This document shows, in pieces, positions 3,515 to 47,350 of a stretch of 47,350 nucleotides of DNA (the stretch's first letter is position 1; each line of letters opens with the position of its first letter). The notes under the pieces were generated by a model that was not told the DNA's origin, did not search any database, and saw only the letters and a program-made list of their open reading frames with translations. A program made the position numbers and the translations under genes. Location of the stretch: positions 1 through 47,350 of the IMG/VR virus record IMGVR_UViG_3300020390_000006. One strand, 5' to 3'. Source of the stretch: a virus.

Positions 3515-3625
3515 GGTGACAAATAACGTCACAATGTGACAATTATTATTCCCTTTAAAATCAATAGGTTAGACGTGCATGATACCTAACCTATTGATTC
3601 TATTACAGTTTATGGGTGACAAATA
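3515..3625. repeat. Paired 11-mers flanking a perfect 14-bp inverted repeat
   Basis: GGTGACAAATA occurs at 3515-3525 and 3615-3625. Between them, arms 3559-3572 and 3586-3599 (AATCAATAGGTTAG and its complement) pair perfectly around a 13-nt loop. The surrounding DNA is A+T-rich. The arrangement suits a protein-binding array or replication element; a terminator for gene 3668-4246 is the duller alternative. Confidence 0.65.
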
Positions 3626-3667
3626 TTGTCAGATAGATAGGCCGCCGTCCCTGGCGACCTGACCTAG

Positions 3668-4246
3668 CTAGTGTTGTTTCTGTTTAGTCTTGACGTGACT
3701 CACGATGCTATCAATAATTTTGCATAGCAATACGTCAGGCATAGGGTGATTGTCAAGCAACTGTCTTGACTCACTTGTACTACTTGACAAGCCTGTCTGT
3801 ATCATGTATTGACAGGCCAATCGCTTACGCATACGCCATAGGTCTTTAGTAGTACGCCCTGTCATTGACGCTAGCATATGAATGAGCAGTCTCAGACGCT
3901 CCCGGTGTTTGTTAGTGAAGCCTTCCCGCGCTTGCCTGCTAGCTTCCACGGGCAAGTCGAGTCCCGCCGCTGCATCCCTTACGCCCTGTTCATATGACGT
4001 GGGTATATAGTCGTATTGATCGTACTTAGCCTCGCCCACGTTAGCGATGTTACGGCGGGCAGCGAATGCATCACGTCGGATATGGTTAGGCCCGATAGCC
4101 TGTCCCTTAGATGCGGCTACATGGTCAATCATGCCGCCACCTATCCGGGCCTTCTGCCTACGCTGCCTGCGCATTTTTGCATACATACCCGGATCGGCTC
4201 GTAACTTGCGCTTACGCTCGCTGGTATCTACTGTTTTTTTGCTCAT
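3668..4246 (-). CDS. Basic hypothetical protein (192 aa)
   Basis: Begins MSKKTVDTSERKRKLRADPG with a strongly basic first 35 residues, consistent with DNA or RNA binding, then a helical body (RERLRLLIHMLASMTGRTTKDLW). Its ATG overlaps the stop of gene 4243-4422 (ATGA) and GGGAG lies upstream. No recognised domain. It ends the block that starts at the divergent hub, so it is probably made very early. Confidence 0.8.
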   Translation of the reverse strand: MSKKTVDTSERKRKLRADPGMYAKMRRQRRQKARIGGGMIDHVAASKGQAIGPNHIRRDAFAARRNIANVGEAKYDQYDYIPTSYEQGVRDAAAGLDLPVEASRQAREGFTNKHRERLRLLIHMLASMTGRTTKDLWRMRKRLACQYMIQTGLSSSTSESRQLLDNHPMPDVLLCKIIDSIVSHVKTKQKQH

Positions 4247-4422
4247 TTGTAATACTCCCTTAATATCTGATAGTACATTATTAAATCTGCAATGTTTTGC
4301 ATCGCTTCCAAGAAACTGTCACCGAATCCGTATTGAATACTATCGCCTACAATAGCCGATATAGTCCAACTATCTATAGTAGTAGGCGAATGTTCCACGT
4401 GGAACACTAGATTTACTTTCAT
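4243..4422 (-). CDS. Small hypothetical protein (59 aa)
   Basis: Too short for a routine 60-codon screen, but its ATG overlaps the stop of gene 4419-4589 and its stop overlaps the start of gene 3668-4246, giving a chain of ATGA junctions. It begins MKVNLVFHVEHSP and ends with aromatic-rich MYYQILREYYK. A perfect parS-like palindrome (4391-4406) is embedded in codons 6-11 (VFHVEH). Function unknown. Confidence 0.7.
   Translation of the reverse strand: MKVNLVFHVEHSPTTIDSWTISAIVGDSIQYGFGDSFLEAMQNIADLIMYYQILREYYK
4391..4406. promoter_or_regulatory. parS-like site 1
   Basis: TGTTCCACGTGGAACA, a perfect 16-bp palindrome of the chromosomal parS type bound by ParB (known family: consensus TGTTNCACGTGNAACA; the TTCCACGTGGAA form is typical of Pseudomonas). 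An identical copy lies exactly 350 bp away at 4741-4756. The two are read in different codon frames by their host genes, so the DNA, not the protein, is conserved. No ParB gene is visible, so host ParB would be the reader (inference). Confidence 0.8.
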
Positions 4423-4589
4423 GTTGCTAACTCCATATCAATAATAGACTTATACATGGCTTGGCTAGCTAGTGCTGGCGTCAAGCCGCTACCTATGGCC
4501 TGATATGCATACTGCCCACAATGACATACGTCACAGGTTGCATACCACAAACCTTTATAAAAAAACATATCTTTATTACGATAATGCAT
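4419..4589 (-). CDS. Small zinc-knuckle protein (56 aa)
   Basis: Start at 4589 has GGAGACCATT directly before ATG. It contains CDVCHCG at residues 19-25, a compact Cys/His cluster, and a helical C terminus. Its stop overlaps the ATG of gene 4243-4422. One cluster alone may need a partner or dimer to bind zinc. Family not recognised. Confidence 0.65.
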   Translation of the reverse strand: MHYRNKDMFFYKGLWYATCDVCHCGQYAYQAIGSGLTPALASQAMYKSIIDMELAT

Positions 4590-4618
4590 AATGGTCTCCG
4601 GCTATTGATAGGACAGGC

Positions 4619-4804
4619 TTAATAGCCTGCCCATTCTTTCAATGCTATATAGGAATCAAATTTCCTGTTAGGTTCGCCGGGAAATTCATCCCTTACGACA
4701 ACTGTGTATTCATCCCGACCTAACAGGTTGCTATCGTTTTTGTTCCACGTGGAACATATAAACCAGTCATGCGTTGATGCCCATTCAACCTGATTTAATG
4801 TCAT
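4619..4804 (-). CDS. Small acidic protein (61 aa), first leftward gene
   Basis: Start at 4804 is preceded by GAGGAAAA; the frame is open to 4870 without a site. The protein starts MTLNQVEWASTHDWF and carries parS-like site 2 in its codons for CSTWN. It is the first gene of the leftward arm after the divergent hub, a place where early host-takeover genes usually sit. No family recognised. Confidence 0.7.
   Translation of the reverse strand: MTLNQVEWASTHDWFICSTWNKNDSNLLGRDEYTVVVRDEFPGEPNRKFDSYIALKEWAGY
4741..4756. promoter_or_regulatory. parS-like site 2
   Basis: TGTTCCACGTGGAACA, identical over 16 bp to 4391-4406. Here the palindrome encodes part of CSTWN, there VFHVEH, so protein-level constraint cannot explain the identity. 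A third partial match (TTCCACGTGG, 10662-10671) in the terminase gene lacks the outer bases and was not counted. Confidence 0.8.
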
Positions 4805-4898
4805 AGCGTTTTCCTCTTGATGCTTAGATAAGGCAATAAATTTTCTCAATACCGGGGCGAACAATAGCAAAGATAAGGGCAGCGTAGTGTTGTTTATA

Positions 4899-4925
4899 TG
4901 TTACAATATGTAAAGATATGTAACA
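4899..4925. promoter_or_regulatory. 27-bp dyad operator
   Basis: TGTTACA at 4899-4905 pairs with TGTAACA at 4919-4925, and the inner ATAT blocks extend the symmetry. It lies about 100 bp upstream of the first leftward gene, as expected for an operator controlling the early promoter. The bound protein is unknown. Confidence 0.6.
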
Positions 4926-4949
4926 GGTGATAAAGATTCTCATTCTCGC

Positions 4950-4963
4950 TTGTTCTAGGACAA
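4950..4963. promoter_or_regulatory. Dyad operator-like site, copy 2
   Basis: TTGTTCTAGGACAA, identical to 3002-3015. It lies just outside the 27-bp dyad, about 150 bp upstream of the first leftward start, the same distance as copy 1 from its gene (about 140 bp). Confidence 0.5.
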
Positions 4964-5126
4964 ATGGTCCTCATATATTGCGGAATTGCCCTTTATATGC
5001 ACGCATAATGCATGGAAATGGTATTGATAATCGTTCTCAAGTGAGAAAAAGGGCAATGGGTTTGACCCATCTTTCTCTTGGTACGAACGTACTAGGAAGC
5101 TGCAACCTGGCACGGGCGTGCTAGTT

Positions 5127-5148
5127 GGGCGGGGCCGGGGGGGAGGGG
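5127..5148 (+). other. Potential G-quadruplex
   Basis: Four runs of three or more G (GGG, GGGG, seven G, GGGG) separated by 1-2 nt meet the usual G4 pattern on the + strand. It is the only such cluster noticed in this A+T-leaning genome and sits in the divergent hub. Confidence 0.6.
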
Positions 5149-5290
5149 CCCTGCTTGTGTGGTGCATTCAACCCCTCAAAAATAGCTAAGAGAAATTCTA
5201 ACCTCCAGGGTTTTTTAAATTATTTTTAATATTTTTTATAATATTTTAATATTTCCAGGAACTTTTCCTATTTTTTGTTGTCTAAGAGTC

Positions 5291-5319
5291 TATATGTTTA
5301 ATTAGGTAATTAGTATAAT
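5291..5319 (+). promoter_or_regulatory. Candidate rightward promoter (-10 TATAAT)
   Basis: A perfect TATAAT at 5314-5319 lies about 50 nt before the first rightward gene in A+T-rich DNA. The -35 position (about 5291-5296, TATATG) is weak. A tandem GTTAAC-TT-GTTAAC at about 5339-5352 may be an operator. Confidence 0.4.
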
Positions 5320-5369
5320 AGTAAGTAGGTGAATAGTAGTTAACTTGTTAACGATAATACGGAGTATGT

Positions 5370-5558
5370 ATGTTCAATCTAATTAAAGGATTAGTTACTA
5401 AGAAGTTAGTGAAAGCAGTAGTACGTACAGTAAGTAAGGGTAATCCTTATGCACTAGCTGCTGTAGAATTGTACAGTTTAGTAGATATCCTGGTAGATCG
5501 AGAGAAGGAAGGTAAGATCAAGACTGGGATTAAGCAGGATAAGCGTAAGAAGAAATAA
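5370..5558 (+). CDS. Small basic protein (62 aa), first rightward gene
   Basis: ATG at 5370 has GGAG about 7 nt upstream. The protein begins MFNLIKGLVTKKLVKAVV, an amphipathic hydrophobic-basic helix, and ends in a Lys/Arg tail (KQDKRKKK). Such a profile fits membrane association or nucleic-acid binding. No family recognised. It opens the structural arm. Confidence 0.75.
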   Translation: MFNLIKGLVTKKLVKAVVRTVSKGNPYALAAVELYSLVDILVDREKEGKIKTGIKQDKRKKK

Positions 5559-5582
5559 AACTGATACATGGAGAACTATCTG

Positions 5583-5822
5583 ATGAATACAGTAAGAGAA
5601 ACTGACAAAGATCTCAGAGAGATGGAAAGGAAAGTAATGGCTCATCGATATCTCTATTACATAGAGTGTGATCCAGTTATTACTGATTTTCAATATGATC
5701 AACTTCAAAGAGAGTTTGATAAGGTAGGTAACCCTAATTCTCCAGCTGTACAGGTAGGCTCTGATCTTTCTTCAGACTATTCTGCAGATGAAATAGAATT
5801 GGCCATGTATTATGCCAGATAA
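5583..5822 (+). CDS. Stand-alone NAD-ligase Ia-like domain protein (79 aa)
   Basis: Start at 5583 chosen because GGAGA precedes it; the upstream ATG at 5568 has no site. The core reads HRYLYYIECDPVITDFQYD..L, then PNSPAVQVGSD, which follows the N-terminal Ia (NMN-binding) domain of bacterial LigA (YYxxDxPxIsDxEYDxL...PxSPtqrVG). In LigA this domain is about 70 residues and precedes the adenylation domain; here nothing else of the ligase is present. It may bind NAD/NMN or act on host ligase. Confidence 0.7.
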   Translation: MNTVRETDKDLREMERKVMAHRYLYYIECDPVITDFQYDQLQREFDKVGNPNSPAVQVGSDLSSDYSADEIELAMYYAR

Positions 5823-6051
5823 GAAATATAAGATTAAGCCAGCTCCTAAGGGCCAAGTAGATAAATACCAAGGACAGAAGTCTAAGGCTATTAAGCGCTT
5901 AGCTAGCCATGGTAAGGCTGCTACTATACGTAGCTTCAAGCCCCAAGAGGATAAGCTAGGTAGGTCTCCTAAGCAGGCTAAGATGCCCTCTTTGCAGCGT
6001 AGTGCTGCAGATCCTCGTAAGCCTCTTAAGTCCTCTAAGTATAAGTTTTAA
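5812..6051 (+). CDS. Very basic small protein (79 aa)
   Basis: Overlaps the end of the ligase-like gene by 11 nt. The sequence (MPDKKYKIKPAPKGQ onward) is rich in Lys, Arg, Pro and Ser with no hydrophobic core, so it is probably disordered and binds nucleic acid or the virion interior. No homologue recognised. Confidence 0.75.
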   Translation: MPDKKYKIKPAPKGQVDKYQGQKSKAIKRLASHGKAATIRSFKPQEDKLGRSPKQAKMPSLQRSAADPRKPLKSSKYKF

Positions 6052-6062
6052 GGTAAAGAATA

Positions 6063-6587
6063 ATGGCTGATACGTACACTCCTAAGAATAGGAAAACTAA
6101 GACTGAGTTTAAAGTAAATAAGAAAGCGGCTAAGCATCTGCAAAAAAACCAGCCTATGGGTGAAGGAACTTCAGTTAGATATAATGCTGTGAAGAAAGAT
6201 CTTTCAGATTACCGTATGTCTCGTAGAGAAGATAATAAAGCTACTAAATCTATTAAGCGTGGCGGCTCTTCAGCTAATCGTAGTAAAGCTGTAACTATGG
6301 ACAATCGTGCTGAGGTAGCTAAAGGTAGTAAGGCTTCTGGTGTATCTGTAAACAATAAAATGGTACGTCAAGGTAAAGTCAAAGCTGCTGAGAAGATGGT
6401 ACGTAAGGCTAAGAACAACATGGCTGGTAAACGTATGGGTGTCGCAGGTATAGCAGCCCAATCTGCAGCTACAGGTTTTGAAGTAGGCAAGGCTGTTCGT
6501 AAAGCAGTAGACAATGCTAATATGCGCAAAACAGCTAAGCAAGGATCTAATCGTTTTAAAGTTCGTCAGATGCAGAAGGATAAGTAA
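6063..6587 (+). CDS. Basic, Lys-rich protein (174 aa)
   Basis: Like the previous gene, strongly basic (NRKTKTEFKVNKKAAKH and further Lys/Arg clusters), with one Ala/Gly stretch (GVAGIAAQSAATG) near residue 125 that could be a short membrane-active helix. Its stop overlaps the next ATG (TAATG). Together with 5812-6051 it suggests DNA-condensing or head-associated factors ahead of the tail-fibre genes. Function unknown. Confidence 0.75.
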   Translation: MADTYTPKNRKTKTEFKVNKKAAKHLQKNQPMGEGTSVRYNAVKKDLSDYRMSRREDNKATKSIKRGGSSANRSKAVTMDNRAEVAKGSKASGVSVNNKMVRQGKVKAAEKMVRKAKNNMAGKRMGVAGIAAQSAATGFEVGKAVRKAVDNANMRKTAKQGSNRFKVRQMQKDK

Positions 6588-7537
6588 TGGGTAAACTATA
6601 CACACCTACACCAATCAGTAACATCTACAGTTCAGTTAATACTATTAACCAGAACTGGGATGACATTGCAGATGCACTAGATCTAACTCTGGCTAGGGAC
6701 GGTAGTACTCCTAATCAGATGGAAGACCTCATTGATATGAACTCTAATGATATCATCAATGCAGGTGCTATCTACATGGATCAGTTGTTTGTTGATGGTG
6801 CCCGGATCCCCTCTCTTCAAGAGATTGGGGAAACCTATGCTGATATGCTAGTAGCTCTCGCAGCTGGTGAGGCTGCTCAGTTAGCGGCTGAACAAGCACA
6901 GGCTGGTGCAGAGACTGCTGAAACCAACGCTGTTGCAGCTCAGACAGCAGCAGAGACAGCGCAGACAGCAGCTGAGTTAGCAGAAACTAACGCCGAAGCA
7001 TCGGAAACAGCTGCAGCTACTTCAGCCAGCAACGCAGCCACTAGTGAATCTAACGCTGCTCAAAGCGCAACAGATGCTGAGACTGCCCAGACAAACGCTG
7101 AGACTGCCGAGACCAATGCTGCTACTTCAGAAACAAACGCAGCACAGAGCGCTACAGACGCTCAGACAGCTCAAATTGCAGCGGAGCTAGCAGAGACTAA
7201 TGCAGAAACTGCAGAGTCTAATACACAAGCTATTGTAGATAACTTCTTCTCTGTGGTCGATGTGTCTACTGGCAAAACAGTGACTAGTTCAGATAACAGA
7301 ACTGTACAGCGTGTAACAGCTGCAGCCACTATTACTTTGCCGGAGGACTCTACTGAGAATCTTCCAGCAGGATTTACTATTGAAGTGATGAAAGATACTA
7401 CAGGGACGGTAGACTTTGCAGTTGAAGGTACAGATGTACTAAGAACTTCTGCAGGTACCGAGATCCTAACCCAATACAACTGGGCCACAGCTGTTAAGAT
7501 AGCTTCAGGGGTCTGGGCAATCTATGGTGATCTATAA
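6587..7537 (+). CDS. Tail fibre protein with Ala-rich coiled coil (316 aa)
   Basis: The N-terminal ~90 residues (MGKLYTPTPISNIYSSVNT) form a virion-attachment head shared with the next gene. Residues about 100-215 are a long run of ETNAAASETAA-type repeats, the trimeric coiled-coil shaft usual in podovirus and siphovirus fibres. The last ~95 residues form a beta-rich tip ending YNWATAVKIASGVWAIYGD. Stop and next start overlap (TAATGG). Likely recognises the host surface. Confidence 0.85.
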   Translation: MGKLYTPTPISNIYSSVNTINQNWDDIADALDLTLARDGSTPNQMEDLIDMNSNDIINAGAIYMDQLFVDGARIPSLQEIGETYADMLVALAAGEAAQLAAEQAQAGAETAETNAVAAQTAAETAQTAAELAETNAEASETAAATSASNAATSESNAAQSATDAETAQTNAETAETNAATSETNAAQSATDAQTAQIAAELAETNAETAESNTQAIVDNFFSVVDVSTGKTVTSSDNRTVQRVTAAATITLPEDSTENLPAGFTIEVMKDTTGTVDFAVEGTDVLRTSAGTEILTQYNWATAVKIASGVWAIYGDL

Positions 7538-8106
7538 TGGGTAAGTTGTTTACACCTCAAGACCTTAACTCAGGATTCAACAGCAATGCTAGTTTGAATG
7601 CTAACTTTAATGCCATTGAGACAGCGTTTGATAAGACGCTCTCTCGCACAGGAGAGACTCCAAATCAAATGGAAGCTGATTTGGATATGAATGGTAAGAC
7701 TATCTTCAATGCTACCGAGATTGATGTTGATACTCTAGTCACTAAAGTTATCTCTGTTAATGGCGGGGAGATCCCCAACCTTGAAGAATTGGAGTTCTTA
7801 GTAGAATCTCTTACCCCAGATTCAAAAGAGATTTCAGGAACCTACACTCTTAGAAGTGATGATAAGTTTAGAACTCTTATAGCTACATCTACCACAGAGA
7901 TCACTATTCCCAACACTGCAGGTATTGAGATTGGTTGGTATTGTCATGTGCAAAAAGCAACTACAGGTAATGTAACTTTTACCCCAGCTATAGGCGAGAC
8001 TATCCAAGCAGTGGATGATTCCAATGAGATCTTAGAACAATGGGGTTGGGTTTCAGTAATTAAATTATCAGATCATACTTGGGGCTTAGTAGGGAATCTG
8101 GCATAA
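7537..8106 (+). CDS. Tail fibre paralogue lacking the coiled coil (189 aa)
   Basis: Head (MGKLFTPQDLNSGFNSN, then TPNQMEADLDMNGK) and tip (QWGWVSVIKLSDHTWGLVGN) match the preceding fibre in order, but the Ala-rich shaft is missing. Best explained as a duplication of the fibre gene with loss or gain of the shaft. It may form a short accessory fibre or a hetero-trimer partner. Confidence 0.8.
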   Translation: MGKLFTPQDLNSGFNSNASLNANFNAIETAFDKTLSRTGETPNQMEADLDMNGKTIFNATEIDVDTLVTKVISVNGGEIPNLEELEFLVESLTPDSKEISGTYTLRSDDKFRTLIATSTTEITIPNTAGIEIGWYCHVQKATTGNVTFTPAIGETIQAVDDSNEILEQWGWVSVIKLSDHTWGLVGNLA

Positions 8107-8534
8107 TGTTGTGGTCTAAGATAGGTATTGATTCTAGACGTAAGTATTATCTTAGTGAGCTTTACCCTGTCGCTCCTGAGATTCAAGAATACAATACAGA
8201 TCTAGAAATCAAGCAAATAGAGTTAAAACTTGTACCTACAGGTGAAGCTTTAGAACACTATAATACATCTTTATCTATTCAAGAGATTGATTTTAGGGAT
8301 GTTCGTAAAGATGTTTCTACCCCTGTAGAAGAGTACAACACTTCTTTACAAATCAATTCTATAGTCCTGGACAGTATTCTTGTAGAAGTGGAAACGCCTA
8401 TAGAAGAATATAATACTAATATGGCAGTACAAGTTTTAAACTATATGCCTAATAAGGTTATAACAGGTACAGCCCCAACAGAAGAGTATAATACCTCTAT
8501 AACAATTTCAAGCATTTCTTTGGAGCTAGCGTAA
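8106..8534 (+). CDS. Virion-associated protein with five EYNT repeats (142 aa)
   Basis: Start taken at 8106, whose ATG overlaps the upstream stop (TAATG). After a short head (MLWSKIGIDSRRKYY) the sequence carries five copies of a ~15-28-residue unit with core (E/H)YNT-x-(L/I/M)-x-(I/V): EYNTDLEIKQI, HYNTSLSIQEI, EYNTSLQINSI, EYNTNMAVQVL and EYNTSITISSI. Alternating polar and hydrophobic residues suggest beta strands stacking into a solenoid or fibre tip. Family not recognised. Confidence 0.75.
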   Translation: MLWSKIGIDSRRKYYLSELYPVAPEIQEYNTDLEIKQIELKLVPTGEALEHYNTSLSIQEIDFRDVRKDVSTPVEEYNTSLQINSIVLDSILVEVETPIEEYNTNMAVQVLNYMPNKVITGTAPTEEYNTSITISSISLELA

Positions 8535-8536
8535 AA

Positions 8537-9415
8537 ATGAACAATAGAGCAACTTTAAATTTAAACTATTCCGGCCGTTTTAAAGCCGAAATCCTAAAAG
8601 ACAACGAAGTAGTTCGAGAGTCTTGTTGGTCAGATAATATTGTAGTTAATAATTATTTAAATAACATTGCTTCTGATAGCGGTAATACTGGTGGTATAGG
8701 TAGTATAGCTGTTGGAACTGGAACAACAGCACCAGCAGCTACCGATACAGCTCTTGTTAATCAAATAGGTACTACTTCTAATTCTGTGGATTCTTCTAGT
8801 ACTAATCAAGTTACAGTTGTTCCTTACTATGCTAGTGACAGCTACACTTTTATTTTTAATATTGGTGAAGTTTCGGGAAATATAACAGAAGTATCTGCTA
8901 ATACGTTTTCTGGCGGGATAGCTAGTAGAGCTCTATTTAGAGATGAGTTTGGAGATCCTACATCTGTAACTGTTTTAGCAGACGAACAATTGCGTGTTAC
9001 TTATGAGATGAGATTGACTATACCAGACACTGATGTATTGGCTACAGTAAATGGATATAATCTTACGATAAGGCCTTCTAGTGCGAGTGGGACCGCTTGG
9101 TCTCCAGGATTAAGTATTATCGATTCTACAGCAAATCCTAGAATAACTGCTTATAGTGGACCTATAGGAGATTTTACTGCATTCCCTTCAGGTACTCAAG
9201 CAGGTGCTTCTTCAGTTACAGTTGAGCCGTATGTAGTAGATTCTTTTCAAAGAGAGTTTACTTATACTTGGGATACGGCTCGTGCAAACTTTGATATACA
9301 ATCTTTTAGATCCTATCAATCTGTAGCATTTCAAATAGGTGTTGACCCGGTAATTCCTAAAACATCTAATGATTTACTCTCCTTAACGGTTCTCTATAGT
9401 CTTGGAAGACCTTAA
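8537..9415 (+). CDS. Tail fibre/spike-like protein (292 aa)
   Basis: Begins MNNRATLNLNYSGRFKAEIL, then WSDNIVVNNYLNNIA and IAVGTGTTAPAATDTALVN, a pattern seen in phage tail-fibre or putative receptor-binding proteins (N-rich beta folds with AVGTG-type turns). Low Cys, high Thr/Ser/Asn, no membrane segment. Stop overlaps the next start (TTAATGG). Lies inside the fibre block, so probably part of the adsorption apparatus. Confidence 0.7.
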   Translation: MNNRATLNLNYSGRFKAEILKDNEVVRESCWSDNIVVNNYLNNIASDSGNTGGIGSIAVGTGTTAPAATDTALVNQIGTTSNSVDSSSTNQVTVVPYYASDSYTFIFNIGEVSGNITEVSANTFSGGIASRALFRDEFGDPTSVTVLADEQLRVTYEMRLTIPDTDVLATVNGYNLTIRPSSASGTAWSPGLSIIDSTANPRITAYSGPIGDFTAFPSGTQAGASSVTVEPYVVDSFQREFTYTWDTARANFDIQSFRSYQSVAFQIGVDPVIPKTSNDLLSLTVLYSLGRP

Positions 9416-9990
9416 TGGCTTTACCTAATAACTCTCTTTCCCCTCTAACAAACCCAGAACCTTTCGTAGAAGGCGCTCAATTCCCTATCCTTTTAGAAAA
9501 GGATATTGAGAGGGGAGGTATTGCTATTCAAGATTCTTCTCAAGGCTTAGATGTTAAGTTTTGGTATGCTGAAATTCTTGATGCTTCTGATATTATCATC
9601 TATGCTGATGATGTAGAGCCTATTACTTTTTACTCAGGTAATAATATTACAGAAGTTAGTTTAGCTTTTGATCAGGTAATGAGGCCTACTGTAGCTTTCG
9701 TAGAAAACGGTATGACTAAGCTCAGGTGGTACGATTCCCAGTCTGGACAAACAGTTACTACAGAATATTCTTCCGAATATGTTTCTCCTAAAGTAACTCT
9801 TGATCTTAATAAACAATCTCAAGTTAGTGAGAGTGATATTGTTTTTGCTTATGTAAGAGATAATAAACTTTATTATAGAGATCAAGGTGATCGTTACGGC
9901 GTAGAGTATTTACTCTCTGAAAGACCCCTTCGTAGATTACAGAAGATAGGTTTTACAGCAGGATCTAGAATGCAGTTCATGGGTATTTAA
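9415..9990 (+). CDS. Tail/adsorption-associated protein (191 aa)
   Basis: Begins MALPNNSLSPLTNPEPFVEG and is mostly beta with aromatic pairs (FWYAEIL, LRWYDSQSGQ, FAYVRDNKLYYRDQGDRYG). The last motif resembles repeats that report virion attachment proteins, but I cannot name the family. It ends one nucleotide before the terminase small-subunit gene, linking the fibre block with packaging. Confidence 0.65.
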   Translation: MALPNNSLSPLTNPEPFVEGAQFPILLEKDIERGGIAIQDSSQGLDVKFWYAEILDASDIIIYADDVEPITFYSGNNITEVSLAFDQVMRPTVAFVENGMTKLRWYDSQSGQTVTTEYSSEYVSPKVTLDLNKQSQVSESDIVFAYVRDNKLYYRDQGDRYGVEYLLSERPLRRLQKIGFTAGSRMQFMGI

Positions 9991-9991
9991 A

Positions 9992-10501
9992 ATGGATAGA
10001 ACTTACTATGATGCAATGAATCGTCCTCGCACGGAATCACTCTTCCTCGAGACATTCAAGAACCAACTCAAGGGTGACTACGAACCTGTGTACACCATGC
10101 GTCCGTATGATCACAAGGGTTGTCGTTCAGCTTGTCAGATCTACATGAACGCTGACTCAGAGTATGATGCAGCCATGCAAATCGTTAATGACATGCGTCA
10201 TTGGCGTAAGCTGTGTGGCCTCCGTTGGTTCATGAAAGGTTCAGACGATGGTTCGTTCGATGGGCTTGAGCAATGGCGTAAAGACAAAGCCGCTAAGGAT
10301 GCTACCGAAGCCGTACGTCATTTGAAAGACAAAGCTGCAGACGGTAACGTCACTGCACAGAAGACCCTTCTCGATTACTTCAGTGGTAAATCAGGAGCTG
10401 GTCGTCCTAAGAAAGAAACTGAGAATACAGTACAGCAAGAGCGTGAAGCTAAGATCTTAGACATTCATAAGCAGATTAAAGCAAAGCAGAAGCAGGACTA
10501 A
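9992..10501 (+). CDS. Terminase small subunit (169 aa)
   Basis: Placed directly before the large terminase with adjacent stop/start. The length and pattern fit podovirus small terminases: helical N-terminal half with aromatic DNA-contact candidates (HWRKLCGLRWFMKG), then a Lys/Ala helix and a basic C-terminal tail (KQIKAKQKQD). It would recognise the packaging site and feed DNA to the motor. Assigned mainly from context plus GRPKKE-type basic linker. Confidence 0.7.
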   Translation: MDRTYYDAMNRPRTESLFLETFKNQLKGDYEPVYTMRPYDHKGCRSACQIYMNADSEYDAAMQIVNDMRHWRKLCGLRWFMKGSDDGSFDGLEQWRKDKAAKDATEAVRHLKDKAADGNVTAQKTLLDYFSGKSGAGRPKKETENTVQQEREAKILDIHKQIKAKQKQD

Positions 10502-12073
10502 ATGGTTAGCAAGCAGCTAGAGGAAGCCAGAGAGTTTTACGAAAACGATCTCTACGAATTCGCCAAGTATCTTAATCCTAATTATGTATACGGCGAGATT
10601 CACGAGACTGTGTTTCGCTGGTTACAAGAGGAAGGCACTAGCAGCAAGCAGCTTCTTCTACTTCCACGTGGCCATCTCAAATCACACTGTATTGCAGTTT
10701 GGACTGTGTGGACTATCACACGGCAACCTTGGTGCTCGATCATCTATGTATCGGCAGGGGAAGAACTGGCTAAAGCCCAGGTGTATGTTATTAAGAACAT
10801 GCTGACTTCCGATCAATACAGATTACTGTGGCCGGAGATGGTACGTGAAGAAGATTCTAAAAGGGATAAGTGGTCAGCTTGGGCAATCAATGTCGACCAT
10901 CCTGAACGAAAGAAACGGGGTACTCGAGACTACACTCTTTTTGTTAGGACTGTCAAGTCTAATGCTACTGGCCTCCATTGTTCTCATCTTGTGTTCGATG
11001 ATGTGGTTGTCCCGGCTAATGCTTATAGTCCTGCTGGACGTACCGAAGTACGCCAGGCAGTGTCTCAGTTTTCTTCAGTCCTTAATCCAGGCGGGGTCAT
11101 CAAGGCTGTAGGTACTAGGTATCACCCTAAAGATATCTATGGTCAGTTTGAAGTAGCTAAGAAGCGGGTACATGATAACATCACTGGCGAGTTCATTACT
11201 GAGCAGCTGGTATGGGAAGTGATGGAGCGAAAGGTCGAGTCCAACGGGGACATGACTGGTAGATTCCTATGGCCACGTACCAAATGTCCTAAGAACAATG
11301 AGTGGTATGGCTTCGATCTGAATACACTAGCCGAGATCCGTGCACAATACGAATCAGTAGGTGAGCTGGTACAGTTCTACGCTCAGTACTACAATGATCC
11401 TAATGACCCTGAGTCTAACAGGCTTCAGTACAGTGACTTCGTCTACTACGATAAAGCTCACCTCAGTAACTCTGGGGGTAACTGGTTTATCTCAGGTCGA
11501 GCTCTTAACATCTATGCAGGCATGGATATCGCATGGACTGAGGGTGAGACATCTGACTACACCGCAATCGTAGTGATAGGTGTAGACGAGGAAGGCTTCA
11601 TCTATGTCTTAGACATGGTTAAATTCAGGACTCATGACTACGAAGTCTTCTACGACCACATCACCAGGCTCCACGACTACTGGGGCTTTAAGCGTATGAG
11701 GGTGGAGACCAACTCAGGTGGTCGACTAGTAGCTAATCAGATCGAAACGTATATCAGACGGGAAGGTCGTCATCTTATTATCGATCCCAGCTACGCTTCT
11801 TCTAACTCAGGTAAGAAGTTCGAGCGTCATGCATCAGTGCTGGAGTGGCGCTACAAGAAGAAGCATATTAAACATTTCAAAGGCGGGCTAACGCCAGACC
11901 TCGAAGATGAGGTTGTAATGGCAAGGCCCGCTCATGATGACTTAGAGGATGCCCTCTGCTCCGCAGTTGAAATTGCTCGGCCACCGAGTGCACGTGGCGG
12001 CAGAATAGGTGTTAAACGAGACAACGTCGTAATCGCTAGCAATCGATTCGGCGGTAGGAGAATGATTAGATGA
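10502..12073 (+). CDS. terL: Terminase large subunit (523 aa)
   Basis: ATP-driven packaging motor with nuclease. The P-loop is PRGHLKS at residues 55-61, the variant typical of T7-type large terminases; Walker B LVFDD lies at 163-167. The nuclease domain shows AGMDIAW at 339-345 as first acidic site, VETNSGG near 401-407 and HDDLEDA near 478. Length (523) is slightly below T7 gp19 (586). It overlaps the portal start by 4 nt. Confidence 0.95.
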   Translation: MVSKQLEEAREFYENDLYEFAKYLNPNYVYGEIHETVFRWLQEEGTSSKQLLLLPRGHLKSHCIAVWTVWTITRQPWCSIIYVSAGEELAKAQVYVIKNMLTSDQYRLLWPEMVREEDSKRDKWSAWAINVDHPERKKRGTRDYTLFVRTVKSNATGLHCSHLVFDDVVVPANAYSPAGRTEVRQAVSQFSSVLNPGGVIKAVGTRYHPKDIYGQFEVAKKRVHDNITGEFITEQLVWEVMERKVESNGDMTGRFLWPRTKCPKNNEWYGFDLNTLAEIRAQYESVGELVQFYAQYYNDPNDPESNRLQYSDFVYYDKAHLSNSGGNWFISGRALNIYAGMDIAWTEGETSDYTAIVVIGVDEEGFIYVLDMVKFRTHDYEVFYDHITRLHDYWGFKRMRVETNSGGRLVANQIETYIRREGRHLIIDPSYASSNSGKKFERHASVLEWRYKKKHIKHFKGGLTPDLEDEVVMARPAHDDLEDALCSAVEIARPPSARGGRIGVKRDNVVIASNRFGGRRMIR

Positions 12074-13848
12074 GTGCTGGAGCTAGCCTAGACATTGGCA
12101 ACATTATGGAGTCAGAGCATCAAACAGCTTGTGAGATTGCTCGGCTCTGGCTAGAATGGAATTCATCTCGTTCAATCTGGAAGCAGAGGGTTAACGAGAC
12201 TCGGCAATATGTGTTTGCCACCAGTACCAAGGAAACTACCAACGTACAGAACCCTTGGTCGCATAGTACTAACATCCCGAAGATCGCACAGATCTATGAC
12301 AACCTGAAGGCTAACTATCTGCAAGGCTTGTTCCCTAATCCTAACTGGCTTACCTTTGAAGGTGAAGACGAGGAAGGGGTAACCAAAGCTAAGCGGGATA
12401 TCGTAGAGTCTTATCTCAAGACCAAGCACCGTCTTTCAGATTTCCGGAATGTAGTAGGTAAACTTCTCGATGACTGGGTACTGACGGGTAACGCCTTTGC
12501 GCAGGTAACCTACGAAGTAGAGAAGCATATTGACCCTGACACAGGTATCGATGAGACAGGTTTCGTAGGCCCTCGTGTCTATCGAGTATCTCCTTTCGAT
12601 ATTGTATTCAATCCTCTAGCCACTACCTTTGAAGATTCTCCTAAGATCATCCGGTCTATTAAAACCCTCGGTGAACTTAAACGGGAAATCGAAGAGAATC
12701 CTGAACTTCAATATGAGCAGGAAATCTTCGATAAAGTTATAGGCTTGCGGGAGAACCTTACCCACTTCGAAGCTGAAGATATTGAAAAGTATTTCCAGTT
12801 GCAGATGGATGGGTTCGGTACCTTCGGCGAGTATATTAAGTCGGGCTACGTAGAGATCTTAGATTTCTATGGTGACATTTACGATAAAGATACTGGCGAG
12901 TTCTACAAGAACTATGTATGCACAGTAGTGGATCGTAAGTGGATCATCCGTCGTCAGCCGCTTGAGACTTGGACTGGTCGCCCCCACATCTACCATGTAG
13001 GTTGGCGTGAGCGTACAGATAACCTTTGGGCCATGGGTCCTTTGGATAATCTGGTAGGCATGCAATACCGGATCAACCACCTGGAGAACGCTCGTGCAGA
13101 TGCGTTCGACCAGATGATTGCTCCTGATATTGTATACCGTGGCGATGTCCAAGAACATCTGGGAGAGAACGGTAGCGTAATCTACGAAGCCCCTGAGGGT
13201 GGTGATGTACGTTACCTGGCACCAGACACTACAGTACTCCAAGCAGACTTCCAGATCCAACAGTTGGAAGATAAGATGGAACTGTATTCAGGTGCGCCTC
13301 GAGAAGCTATGGGTATTCGTACCCCAGGGGAGAAGACAGCGTTCGAAGTCCAGTCTCTCCAGAACGCAGCGTCTCGTATCTTCCAGAATAAAATGACTCA
13401 CTTTGAGATCAACATGCTCGAGAAGATCGTGAATGCTGAGATTGAAGTGGCCCGTCGTAACCTGAATACTACGGACATCATCAAGATTGTAGATGATGAT
13501 ACTGGTGTTCAAGAGTTCATGACTATCACCAAGGACGACATTACAGCTAACGGCAAGCTCGTACCTGTAGGTGCTCGTCACTTTGCACGCCAGTCACAGC
13601 TGGCACAAGACCTGGCCCAGTTCCAGCAGATGGTAAGTGTAGATCCTGAAATGATGCAACACTTGTCCTCTGTACGTATGGCCCAGCTCTGGGAAGATAT
13701 CCTTGGGCTAGAGAAGTTTAATCTCTTCTCACCCAATGTACGTATCATGGAGCGTATGGAGTCTCAGCAACTACAACAAGTTGCACAGCAACAGGTGGCT
13801 GAAGACCAGGCACTCGGACAACAGATGGCTATGGGTCAACCTGTATGA
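12070..13848 (+). CDS. Portal (head-tail connector) protein (592 aa)
   Basis: T7 gp8-type connector by position and features: ACEIARLWLEWNSSRSIWKQR at the start, a conserved middle with YRINHLENARADAFDQM, and APREAMGIRTPGEKTAFEVQ near residue 410, typical of this portal family. The Gln-rich C terminus (QQLQQVAQQQVAEDQ) would line the lower portal. Twelve copies form the vertex through which DNA passes. Stop overlaps the next ATG. Confidence 0.9.
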   Translation: MSAGASLDIGNIMESEHQTACEIARLWLEWNSSRSIWKQRVNETRQYVFATSTKETTNVQNPWSHSTNIPKIAQIYDNLKANYLQGLFPNPNWLTFEGEDEEGVTKAKRDIVESYLKTKHRLSDFRNVVGKLLDDWVLTGNAFAQVTYEVEKHIDPDTGIDETGFVGPRVYRVSPFDIVFNPLATTFEDSPKIIRSIKTLGELKREIEENPELQYEQEIFDKVIGLRENLTHFEAEDIEKYFQLQMDGFGTFGEYIKSGYVEILDFYGDIYDKDTGEFYKNYVCTVVDRKWIIRRQPLETWTGRPHIYHVGWRERTDNLWAMGPLDNLVGMQYRINHLENARADAFDQMIAPDIVYRGDVQEHLGENGSVIYEAPEGGDVRYLAPDTTVLQADFQIQQLEDKMELYSGAPREAMGIRTPGEKTAFEVQSLQNAASRIFQNKMTHFEINMLEKIVNAEIEVARRNLNTTDIIKIVDDDTGVQEFMTITKDDITANGKLVPVGARHFARQSQLAQDLAQFQQMVSVDPEMMQHLSSVRMAQLWEDILGLEKFNLFSPNVRIMERMESQQLQQVAQQQVAEDQALGQQMAMGQPV

Positions 13849-16401: not shown

Positions 16402-17043
16402 ATGGTACAACACGTTAGCATACAAAGCGCTGACACTCATGAACCCAAGCACATTACAGCTGCTACAGTTGTCGATGCAGGTAAAGTAATTACCCCATCC
16501 GGCTCTGTCAATGGGGAAAGTGAACTTCGTCGTCTTAATATTTCTGATGTAGAGACTGACGGATACACTAGTCCTTTCTCCTTCTGGGCTACATATCAAG
16601 ATAACCAGTACACTGAAGGGTCCCCTCGTAGTATCACTGGTGGCGTTAGAACTTTGGTTTCTATTAACGGCTTAGGTTCCCAAACAGATACTGCAGAGTT
16701 GCCTGGCGGTATAGATCTTTGGGATGCATCCCTAAACCTGATTACCCCAGAGAATGAACGAGACGCTTATGCGATTCGTTTGAACTATAAATGTTCAACC
16801 ACAGCTACCGGTGCTTATGTCGACAACGAACTCGATATTGGTGGCGCTGTTGGAGTGGCTATTCAAGAGACCCGACCTGTTCTCAAAGCTAGCGATGCTA
16901 CTAATCGGGTGAATGTTTCCTGGCCTGTGTATGTAGGTAGCACATTCATCACGAATGGAGGGGGGCTATACATCACTCCCAGTGACGACACTGACTTCTG
17001 GGATTTCCGTATTAGTATATTCCGCATTCATCAGGGGCAGTAA
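16402..17043 (+). CDS. Structural protein downstream of capsid (213 aa)
   Basis: AGGAG precedes the ATG. The protein begins MVQHVSIQSADTHEPKHI and has a beta-sheet pattern with ETDGYTSPFSFWATY and FWDFRISIFRIHQGQ at the C terminus. Its place between capsid and tail tube A, plus low Cys content, suggests a virion component such as a head or adaptor decoration protein. I do not recognise the family. Confidence 0.7.
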   Translation: MVQHVSIQSADTHEPKHITAATVVDAGKVITPSGSVNGESELRRLNISDVETDGYTSPFSFWATYQDNQYTEGSPRSITGGVRTLVSINGLGSQTDTAELPGGIDLWDASLNLITPENERDAYAIRLNYKCSTTATGAYVDNELDIGGAVGVAIQETRPVLKASDATNRVNVSWPVYVGSTFITNGGGLYITPSDDTDFWDFRISIFRIHQGQ

Positions 17044-43646: not shown

Positions 43647-45950
43647 TCACGCCTTGATGGGGACATCCAATCGATCCTTACCCAAGTCCTCTACCTTAGA
43701 GAGGTCGAGAGTCGAACTCGAGATACGATTGGTGGAGTCAATACCATCAGTGTCACCGAGCAAGATTAATCCCTCCTTGCTACGCGGTATCACTACCTTC
43801 TTGCCGAGGTAAATACCAGATTCAGAGAACTCATCCTCGGGTACATCCTGGGCTACGGCATTGATCGCCATAGAGATAGGGTCGTGGTCGTAGTTGCGAT
43901 TGACTGGCTTACCCGTTAGATTTTCCAGCCATACCACATCGTACGAGTCATCATGAGCAACCTTATCTCGGAGAATTTGCTGGGTGATTTTCTTAACCAC
44001 AGCCTGATCAACCTTGTGGTTGAATTCCTCCAGGTCTAGTGGTGCAACGTCCTTTGCTCCGTAGTCACGGTAAAGAACAGGCTCATTCATCCATGACATG
44101 AGACTACGGCCCCAGCTGCGCAGTTTGCCAACGGCCTTACCGATGACCGATTGCCGCTTAGGTAATACAATCTGTTCATGTACAGGTACACTGTCCAGAA
44201 AGGAGAGTGTATGCTGTAGACGAGCAGCGTACTGTGAGCCTGATCGCTCGACCACACCATGTTCTTCAGGGTCGGCGTTATCCATCAGCCACCGTTGGTA
44301 TTGGATGAGGTCATCACCCCGTACCCAGTAGCTCAACCACTTTGATGTGTCGTCTCGATCAACATGAGAGACACTGCCCCTGCTGTTCTGTTGGGGAACA
44401 GGGGTAGACCGTGGGTACAACATGGTTCGACGTGTGGTATGTTCAGGTACCAAGCGCCGATCCATACGAGCGTGAGGTAGCCAGCAGCTTTGATGCACCC
44501 GGCGATACTCACGTTCCCACTTCATGATCTCCAATTGGCAAGGTTCACCCTGATCGTAGCTAGCATTGAGAGGGCAGGTACCCTGAAACTGAAGATGTTT
44601 GTGGTCTTGCTCATACCATAGACGTAAGAGTTCACCGTACGTCCAGGTATTAAACTCGCTGCCGATGTCAGAGGGGTAGAACAACTGATCGACTGCATAG
44701 TCAGAGAGCATACTGTCTTCCTCGATAAGGACATTATCAGAGGGAGAGAAGTAGCACGAGGCTTGCTCCATGGTATACAGGAAATCAATCTCTTTCATAC
44801 GAGCAGTACGAGTGTATTCATCAGGGCTTTCCGGATCGTGCCAGTCTACCCAGACTTCCTCACCCTTGGTGTAAGCGTACGAACAAGGAGACAAACGATA
44901 GTATCCGTGATCGTAGAGCTCCATCGCCGCTGTTATGGCGATGTTTTGCAGGGCAAGCATTCGGTTTGATGCCATGTCGCTAGCATCGGACGGGCTGACT
45001 CCACTATTGAAAGTCTCTGCTACCCAGGGTTCATCGTCGATGTCCCAAGGAGGAAGCCAGTCTTGCTCGGCGTCATTCAGAGTGGTGATGTAGTCAGCGA
45101 ACTCACCATAGCGGCTGCTGCTCCACGGAATAAACCGTTTGCTGCAGCTTGGATAGGCTGTTAACTTTAGCCCACCCTCAGTGGCCACTGCACTGATACG
45201 TTCGTCGTCCAACACAGCTTCTTCATGTTGATAGGGCCGGTCGGAGGACTGGTCTTTCGTAGCCAACCACTTACGCATGTGGGTCTCGACAGGCGAGGGA
45301 GGTAAGCTAGGCTGTTGGTCCTGGTTTGCAGCTTTCCGTTGGCGAAGGGCGGACCAGCCCCAGCCTTTGGTCCTTGTGTTCAGCTCGGGATCGGGGCGTG
45401 TGATCTGTTCATCCCCGAAGCTACCGCCGCGTGACTGCTGTGAGTTAGCCGTCCGGCTGATCGCTTCAGCCCGAGCATCTTTCAGTGCCGTCTCGAAATC
45501 GACGACGTTGTTCCAGTTCACCCGACACACAGGGCCGGGCCGTTGAGGGGGGCAGGTCAGACTAACACCGTCATGCTTAGGGTCAGGCATAAAGCGCTTA
45601 CCCATAGGCGTGAAGATGCGTGCGTTACAACAAAGATTAGCCAGGGCCTGCATCATAGGGATGCCTTCCCAAGTATCCTTGCCGTAATGGTAGTTCCATG
45701 TAGGCAACCAGTTCTTACTGCCCCCACCACCGCCGTTGCTACCTGAAGAGGCGGCATAAGGTGGGTCAAAGGGTGGCTCATCACGATAGCTACGGCCATG
45801 AGCGTACACGGGCAGCTGTTTCACTGCCTGTTGCATGCTGATGACAGGCGCTATAGCTTGGGCCAACGGTTTCTTGTTACCATTGGGTTTGGTAACTCGC
45901 TTTACCCCACCACCAGGCGGCGGACGCTGCTTCTTAGCAAGCATCGCCAT
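43647..45950 (-). CDS. Large orphan early protein (767 aa)
   Basis: Strong site TGAAGGAGTAAC before ATG, partly inside a hairpin. Basic/Pro N terminus (MAMLAKKQRPPPGGGVKR), a Gly linker (SSGSNGGGGGSKNW, ~68-81), then a Trp/Tyr-rich soluble body (GSKNWLPTWNYHYGKDTW; WLPPWDIDDEPWVAETF; FNTWTYGELLRLWYEQDHKH) and a C-terminal part with VIGKAVGKLRSWGRSLMSWM. I find no polymerase, nuclease or helicase motif and do not recognise the family. It is by far the largest gene of the early arm. Confidence 0.85.
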   Translation of the reverse strand: MAMLAKKQRPPPGGGVKRVTKPNGNKKPLAQAIAPVISMQQAVKQLPVYAHGRSYRDEPPFDPPYAASSGSNGGGGGSKNWLPTWNYHYGKDTWEGIPMMQALANLCCNARIFTPMGKRFMPDPKHDGVSLTCPPQRPGPVCRVNWNNVVDFETALKDARAEAISRTANSQQSRGGSFGDEQITRPDPELNTRTKGWGWSALRQRKAANQDQQPSLPPSPVETHMRKWLATKDQSSDRPYQHEEAVLDDERISAVATEGGLKLTAYPSCSKRFIPWSSSRYGEFADYITTLNDAEQDWLPPWDIDDEPWVAETFNSGVSPSDASDMASNRMLALQNIAITAAMELYDHGYYRLSPCSYAYTKGEEVWVDWHDPESPDEYTRTARMKEIDFLYTMEQASCYFSPSDNVLIEEDSMLSDYAVDQLFYPSDIGSEFNTWTYGELLRLWYEQDHKHLQFQGTCPLNASYDQGEPCQLEIMKWEREYRRVHQSCWLPHARMDRRLVPEHTTRRTMLYPRSTPVPQQNSRGSVSHVDRDDTSKWLSYWVRGDDLIQYQRWLMDNADPEEHGVVERSGSQYAARLQHTLSFLDSVPVHEQIVLPKRQSVIGKAVGKLRSWGRSLMSWMNEPVLYRDYGAKDVAPLDLEEFNHKVDQAVVKKITQQILRDKVAHDDSYDVVWLENLTGKPVNRNYDHDPISMAINAVAQDVPEDEFSESGIYLGKKVVIPRSKEGLILLGDTDGIDSTNRISSSTLDLSKVEDLGKDRLDVPIKA
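45876..45896 (-). promoter_or_regulatory. NTGGGTT-loop hairpin inside the orphan gene start
   Basis: GTTACCA-TTGGGTT-TGGTAAC: seven perfect pairs, 7-nt loop, within codons ~19-25 of the 767-aa gene. Same loop as six other hairpins at 42.2-46.7 kb. Confidence 0.6.
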
Positions 45951-45979: not shown

Positions 45980-46029
45980 TATTCACTATCACGGCTATTG
46001 CGCGCAGACGCGATCGGTCACTTGTTGCT

Positions 46030-46101
46030 ATTACTAAGCAGGACTCGAACCCGCACCTCTCCCTTCGACTAAGAGGCTCTATCCTATTAAGCTATTAGTA
46101 A
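46030..46101 (-). tRNA. tRNA, anticodon position reads TCG (Arg-like)
   Basis: Full cloverleaf: acceptor TTACTAA/TTAGTAA (7 bp); T8 A9; D arm GCTT/GAGC with loop AATAGGATA; anticodon arm CTCTT/GGGAG (two G-T); T arm GCGGG-TTCGAGT-CCTGC. The loop AGTCGAA puts TCG at 34-36 with A37, but position 33 is G instead of the nearly universal T. No encoded CCA. Strong structure, odd loop. Confidence 0.75.
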
Positions 46102-46103
46102 TA

Positions 46104-47257: not shown

Positions 47258-47350
47258 TTGATTCGACCATGCATATATATATATATATATATATTGCTTA
47301 TGGCGTACAACAATGCAACTGCTCCTCTCCGAGAATCGCTGTCGATGTAC
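47258..47350. repeat. Terminal direct repeat, right copy
   Basis: Same sequence as 1-91 with AT run of 22 nt (47273-47294) instead of 20. See left copy. Confidence 0.9.

Follow-up and report, generated by a model that had tools for sequence, protein, structure and literature searches.

Phage phi29 of Bacillus (Salasmaviridae) is a virulent podovirus whose genome carries four TGTTTCACGTGGAACA sites and no ParB recognized by the TIGR00180 model. According to PMC9437464, which cites Meijer 2005, Spo0A puts phi29 development on hold, and the host protein Spo0J traps the phage genome in the spore. The same source discusses CtrA sites in phages of Alphaproteobacteria under the term lytic deferment (PMC9437464). 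There, as in the case described here, phage DNA carries sites for a host cell-cycle protein, although CtrA is a transcription factor whereas ParB is a segregation clamp.

The 16-bp palindrome that is the subject of this analysis, TGTTCCACGTGGAACA, is described from Pseudomonas chromosomes. It is identical to parS2 and parS3 of P. aeruginosa, which are reported as the highest-affinity sites of its ParB (PMC4368675), and it is the exact parS consensus given for P. putida (PMC7022226). An intact CACGTG core of parS is described as important for the P. aeruginosa ParB (PMC4368675), and in the same organism ParB spreading from parS is reported to repress neighbouring promoters (PMC5521831; PMC4368675).

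Among the open-licence papers listed in literature searches, no title or abstract opening mentions host-type parS in phages that lack ParB. Phage lambda has been engineered to carry parS, and this work reportedly used a plasmid-type ParB/parS pair. The engineered lambda is described as able to replicate in cells that produced CFP-ParB and to lyse them (PMC13190303).

Two parS-type palindromes in a Zobellviridae-like phage

The DNA analysed, an IMG/VR virus record 47,350 bases long, is referred to here as the window. Its two ends (1-91 and 47258-47350, the latter 93 bp) match at 98% and are one AT-repeat slip apart. Because the first 91 and last 93 bases overlap, the sequence probably represents a whole, circularly permuted genome about 47.26 kb in length. 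Judged by its predicted proteins, the phage belongs with Zobellviridae, because the portal, tail appendage, terminase, primase/helicase and DNA polymerase, together with the taxonomy of the portal matches, place it there. The portal and tail appendage match PHROG 332 and 8094, and portal identity to the best 30 of 128 records is 47.6-49.2%. The hosts named for the portal relatives, among the matches listed, are Gram-negative. No DNA-level relative of window positions 1-25000 was found among annotated phages, which also gave no tblastn match to a 560-aa piece of a 1678-aa protein; plasmids gave no match to positions 3786-4960.

The window contains two exact copies of TGTTCCACGTGGAACA, 350 bp apart from start to start, and no third similar place at up to three mismatches. 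Thus the exact search and the 3-mismatch search both bear out the pair reported in the preliminary description of this DNA. Both copies fit TGTTYCACGTGRAACA, the 16-bp palindrome that characterizes chromosomal-type parS, and they lie close together as expected of a cluster of such sites. AT repeats aside, the window has no other perfect palindrome of at least 14 bp, and a looser pattern, TGTTCCNNNNGGAACA, has no further copy with fewer than two mismatches. Markov models of order 1-5 predict only 4e-6 to 8e-6 exact copies (the earlier estimate was about 1e-5), and a chance origin of the pair is rejected. The copies fall in two genes and in different frames, as had been described, since copy 2 occupies codons 17-22 of ORF A (CSTWN) and copy 1 codons 6-11 of ORF C (VFHVEH). 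Given these unlike frames and flanks, a single duplicated segment is also rejected as the source of both copies.

Table 1. Coordinates of the two palindromes and the surrounding features in the window. ORF A and the ORF ends were read by eye, ORF C by translation.
Feature	Position	Strand	Remark
ORF D, early, 192 aa, downstream of the sites	3668..4246	-	overlaps ORF C at ATGA
ORF C, small early, 59 aa, carries parS copy 1	4243..4422	-	overlaps start of ORF D
parS copy 1, perfect TGTTCCACGTGGAACA palindrome	4391..4406	strandless	L153 counterpart TGTTCCGCGTGGAACA
ORF B, small early, 56 aa, between the sites	4419..4589	-	stop overlaps ATG of ORF C
ORF A, small early, 61 aa, carries parS copy 2	4619..4804	-	AGAGGAAAA upstream, possible ribosome site
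parS copy 2, perfect TGTTCCACGTGGAACA palindrome	4741..4756	strandless	L153 counterpart TGTTCCATATGGAACA
Hub without convincing ORFs, between leftward early arm and rightward arm	4805..5369	strandless	48 bp from the end of parS copy 2

Both copies are found where the leftward early arm begins, as the preliminary description had placed them, and copy 2 ends 48 bp from the hub. In this arm small genes come first, followed across the assembly break by replication genes including the primase/helicase and DNA polymerase, and the rightward arm carries the structure genes. Plausible ribosome sites precede the small ORFs around the copies. ORFs A, B and C have no PHROG match, and the PHROGs and Pfam scans recognized no regulator among the proteins adjoining the sites. 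Pfam (ten proteins) and Padloc (six proteins) gave nothing bearing on the parS sites, and a promoter scan of positions 3600-5600 returned fewer sites than shuffled sequence.

The early region also contains a different palindrome-like motif, TGTYCTAGRACA, with exact copies at window positions 1740, 3003 and 4951. Five window matches are present at up to one mismatch, against 0.57 expected, which makes the motif a candidate for an operator or a promoter element of the phage. Its counterpart at position 4951 in the related fragment L153, described below, is the fully palindromic TGTCCTAGGACA. Elsewhere in the early arm lies a 767-aa protein (43647-45950, minus strand) without a match in PHROGs, Pfam or Padloc, and a tRNA-Ser(cga) gene is found at 46029-46102 (minus strand).

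ParB is absent from the window by both PF02195 and TIGR00180. This agrees with the earlier statement that none is encoded, and on these two models a phage-encoded ParB is rejected as the partner of the sites. The Pseudomonas chromosomal parS sites have the same 16-mer but serve a replicon with parAB, whereas here no cognate ParB was recognized on the replicon that bears the sites; nor did the two models find an encoded ParB that would mark a phage-plasmid with its own ParABS. A PHROGs scan of 50 window ORFs gave neither an integrase nor a repressor, and one excisionase-like match was weak (615-959, E 0.002). As far as these 50 ORFs go, the description of the phage as lytic-type holds.

The window phage therefore resembles phi29 in being, by that scan, a lytic phage with parS and no recognized ParB. 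The preliminary description knew of no described lytic podovirus that used host parS in this way, and phi29 with its four sites and its reported use of host Spo0J is such a case. The two phages differ in that the phi29 sites are spread over half of the genome (10445-18760), whereas both window sites stand at the start of an early operon. Furthermore, phi29 has a spore-forming host, and the window phage is Zobellviridae-like, its listed portal relatives having Gram-negative named hosts.

The pair in relatives

The only close relative that covers the site region is L153, an IMG/VR fragment of 9,276 bp that aligns in pieces to window positions 3786-12813. Another near-identical fragment (L144) begins beyond the sites, and a search of viral contigs with ORF D matched only the L153 contig. 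In the two pieces that surround the sites, L153 shares 97% and 93% identity with the window. Neither of the two L153 sites is perfect (Table 1). All 24 arm bases are kept and three of the eight core bases differ, giving the cores GCGT and ATAT, of which ATAT is still palindromic. Both affected codons change the amino acid, from V to A by translation and from T to I as read by eye. Because the CACGTG core matters for P. aeruginosa ParB, weaker ParB binding would be expected in L153. In this unrooted comparison the L153 sites are read as two eroded former parS sites and not as plain absence, although the change may have run the other way. L153 also carries, at about 638-834 and between the site-bearing genes, some 200 extra bases that are absent in the window and may hold a small gene.

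Overall, L153 differs from the window by 43 substitutions in 1412 aligned bases. Against this rate, three substitutions in eight core bases have P = 0.0013, three in the 32 site bases P = 0.07, and two in 32, when the change of CG to TA is counted as one event, P = 0.25; the statistic is post hoc, and on 1412 bases its value ranges from 0.0013 to 0.25 with the way of counting. Restricting the count to 572 local bases picked by hand, which include nine substitutions, gave P = 0.00015 for the cores and 0.011 for the sites.

More distant relatives point the same way. A set of 24 records with related portals, most of which are fragments, gave matches at up to two mismatches in L153 and G006 only, G006 having one two-mismatch site. 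Perfect parS was found in none of 13 further Zobellviridae-type records searched whole, which include G002 and G006, and a one-mismatch site in one of them, PQ867845. PA11, a phage of P. aeruginosa, a host with such a ParB, has no parS. The site of the Zobellviridae genome PQ867845.1 (L220) is TGTTGCACGTGAAACA at 16872-16887; it differs at one position from the consensus applied in this analysis and fits the B. subtilis form TGTTNCACGTGAAACA as given in PMC7022226.

Since the L153 cores have changed and 0/13 Zobellviridae-type records have a perfect site, the parS pair is not conserved among relatives. The earlier conclusion that selection acts on the DNA, drawn from the two codon frames, is not borne out by TGTTCCGCGTGGAACA and TGTTCCATATGGAACA in L153 and by the lack of perfect sites in the 13 distant records. 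The preliminary description had also named absence of both sites from close relatives as a result that would tell against its proposal. L153 and the 13 records do lack perfect sites, but the appearance of erosion in L153 differs from simple absence. L153 weakens the window pair taken by itself, and the broad pattern described next is the more interesting result.

Host-type parS in viral collections and isolated phages

In IMG/VR, at least 120 stretches carry the parS 16-mer and at least 120 carry the 18-mer parS+CC. Because nine stretches are common to both sets, the total is estimated at ~1600 or more (120 x 120/9), a figure good to a factor of about two, nine being a small base. The sole control palindrome used for abundance, the ATAT-core form TGTTCCATATGGAACA, occurs in 60 stretches in a full scan. 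Two copies were present in 4 of 120 parS stretches and in 0 of 60 control stretches. Two scans for pairs found nine stretches with copies 291-342 bp apart. These represent six lineages: L003-L005 form one near-identical set, L006-L007 form another, and the remaining stretches have little in common beyond the sites.

When 50 parS records were searched whole (50 of 128 loci), 13 had 2-5 perfect copies and 37 had one; seven of the 13 had been chosen for their pairs, and the 43 other records include six with multiple copies. Two of the 13 (G028 and G029) are alike, and two others (G032 and G044) have their copies more than 10 kb from each other. Neither ParB_N (PF02195) nor TIGR00180 recognized a ParB in any of the 13. 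The terminase model PF03237 matched 5 of 14 records, the 13 and the window, at E 0.01, with two above the cut-off; the window was negative, as its terminase fits another model. Because only five matched, the phage identity of the negative records relies on IMG/VR, which may contain host or provirus stretches. The location of the sites did not set them apart, as 56 of 100 viral parS sites and 25 of 48 control sites lie outside ORFs, and 44/100 and 23/48, respectively, lie inside ORFs of at least 100 aa, with 27 parS and 12 control sites near contig ends left out of the count. A mainly intergenic location of parS in viruses is thus unsupported.

Among annotated phages, a 30-letter padded parS query matched 168 records, and in 100 the aligned part was >=99% identical; many of the 168 are near-duplicates or of a single lineage. 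The control core matched 12 records, none at 99%. By raw counts the names among the matches are Pseudomonas 37, Mycobacterium 27, Bacillus 24, Microviridae 18 and Klebsiella 10. Escherichia is outside the ten commonest names and so has at most 3. Klebsiella is not known to have a chromosomal ParB, and its matches speak against a clean rule that phages of ParB-less hosts lack parS; several of those records exceed 340 kb.

Ten isolates picked from these matches were searched whole. Besides the four sites of phi29, perfect parS-type sites number three in XD2, two in phiPsa374, one in Lana, three in pCXc, five in SYP, two in Amme-3, one in phiR18 and three in Ep020, and Salva has none. Extra near sites occur in XD2 (one), SYP (one), Ep020 (two) and Amme-3 (one). 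A backward control pattern was found in none of 23 records, that is, the ten isolates and the 13 Zobellviridae-type records, and TIGR00180 found no ParB in any of the ten isolates. The Pseudomonas and Stenotrophomonas phages phiPsa374, SYP, XD2, Amme-3, Ep020 and Salva are like the window in having parS-type sites without a TIGR00180 ParB; unlike the window, they have larger genomes (61-107 kb) and belong to other groups. None of the open-licence papers listed deals with the sites of these phages. In phiPsa374 one site lies at 389 in the annotated terminal repeat and the other at 98150 near the other end, and SYP has sites near both genome ends. The Stenotrophomonas phage Salva (L370) has one-mismatch variants at 2746, 3532 and 3819, within 1.1 kb in the annotated or predicted terminal repeat. 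The end or early-arm placement shared by phiPsa374, Salva, SYP and the window is a lead only. Because unrelated phages also carry parS without ParB, these findings suggest that phages borrow the host's chromosome-sorting machinery.

Explanations for the sites and their meaning

The best explanation, held with moderate confidence, is that the palindromes are genuine chromosomal-type parS that would serve as loading sites for host ParB, a dispensable trait that may be gained and lost quickly. It is supported by the exact match, the expectation of 4e-6 to 8e-6, the abundance relative to the control and the multi-copy records that lack ParB. The loss in L153, the 0/13 relatives and the non-intergenic placement count against it. 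The original proposal of chromosomal-type parS, for which the host would have to supply ParB, is well supported by sequence identity, by the negative ParB models and by the abundance and clustering of parS in records without recognized ParB.

The chief rival is that the palindromes are operators for a phage regulator or another host regulator that contacts the arms TGTTCC and GGAACA, so that the match to parS is coincidental. The 24 unchanged arm bases in L153, with its GCGT core and its palindromic ATAT core, speak for this explanation, and the repeats of TGTYCTAGRACA in the early region make such elements possible. However, both copies would then have to reproduce by chance the exact 8 bp of a parS half site, for which the odds are about 1 in 65,000. 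Furthermore, the arm pattern recurs nowhere else in the window with fewer than two mismatches, the ACGT core is far commoner than the ATAT core in viral collections, and no regulator was recognized next to the sites; an operator is thus unlikely. Avoidance of CACGTG by restriction-site turnover, as an account of the differences between the window and L153 that needs no ParB, is very improbable. L153 retains one of the four CACGTG present in the window stretch that it covers, a loss that fits avoidance, but the one retained and the six in the whole window do not, and turnover would not create 16-bp parS palindromes.

Two further explanations accept the link to parS and differ about its use. As decoys, the sites would soak up host ParB and thereby disturb segregation or blunt a ParB-linked function, which agrees with a phage that has no recognized ParB and whose replication would multiply the sites. 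Two sites per genome are few for this purpose, though, and the single sites of many records (37/50) fit poorly, which makes titration improbable. Alternatively, the sites may be relics, acquired through recombination with DNA of the host or of other phages and since then left to drift with no function. The loss in L153 and the lack of a perfect site in 13/13 other family-type records speak for this. Yet two perfect copies with unlike flanks and frames do not resemble one recombined segment, and drift would not produce clusters of several copies in phage records that are unlike one another; there is accordingly little likelihood that the sites are relics.

How would host-ParB loading sites act in the infected cell? 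When the phage DNA enters a host that has a canonical ParB, ParB-CTP clamps would nucleate on the two sites and from there slide across the first part of the early operon and the neighbouring hub. Less certainly, the clamps would link the phage genome to the ParA/SMC machinery of the host and may damp early transcription. The replication and lysis described for lambda-parS argue against this silencing part only. In slow or starved cells the genome might be retained and passed on to a daughter cell rather than lost, in a form of lytic deferment or carrier state; this less certain idea comes from the analogy with phi29 and Spo0J. The sites would be a host-dependent trait that can be dispensed with, and rapid gain and loss would accommodate the difference in both L153 cores.

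Tentatively, host-type parS without ParB may represent a widespread and repeatedly evolved strategy, in which lytic phages use host ParB, often from the end that enters or is expressed first, to anchor, silence or share out their DNA in poor growth, and in which core mutation switches the trait, as may be seen in L153. This broader view is possible but, on balance, doubtful. The window and L153 form a natural pair with intact and core-mutated sites, and isolates that grow on laboratory hosts carry such sites (Amme-3, P. putida KT2440), which makes the idea testable with parB deletion strains. If it is true, phage infection would be tied to chromosome segregation outside sporulation, and the single old case of phi29 would become a possibly common trait.
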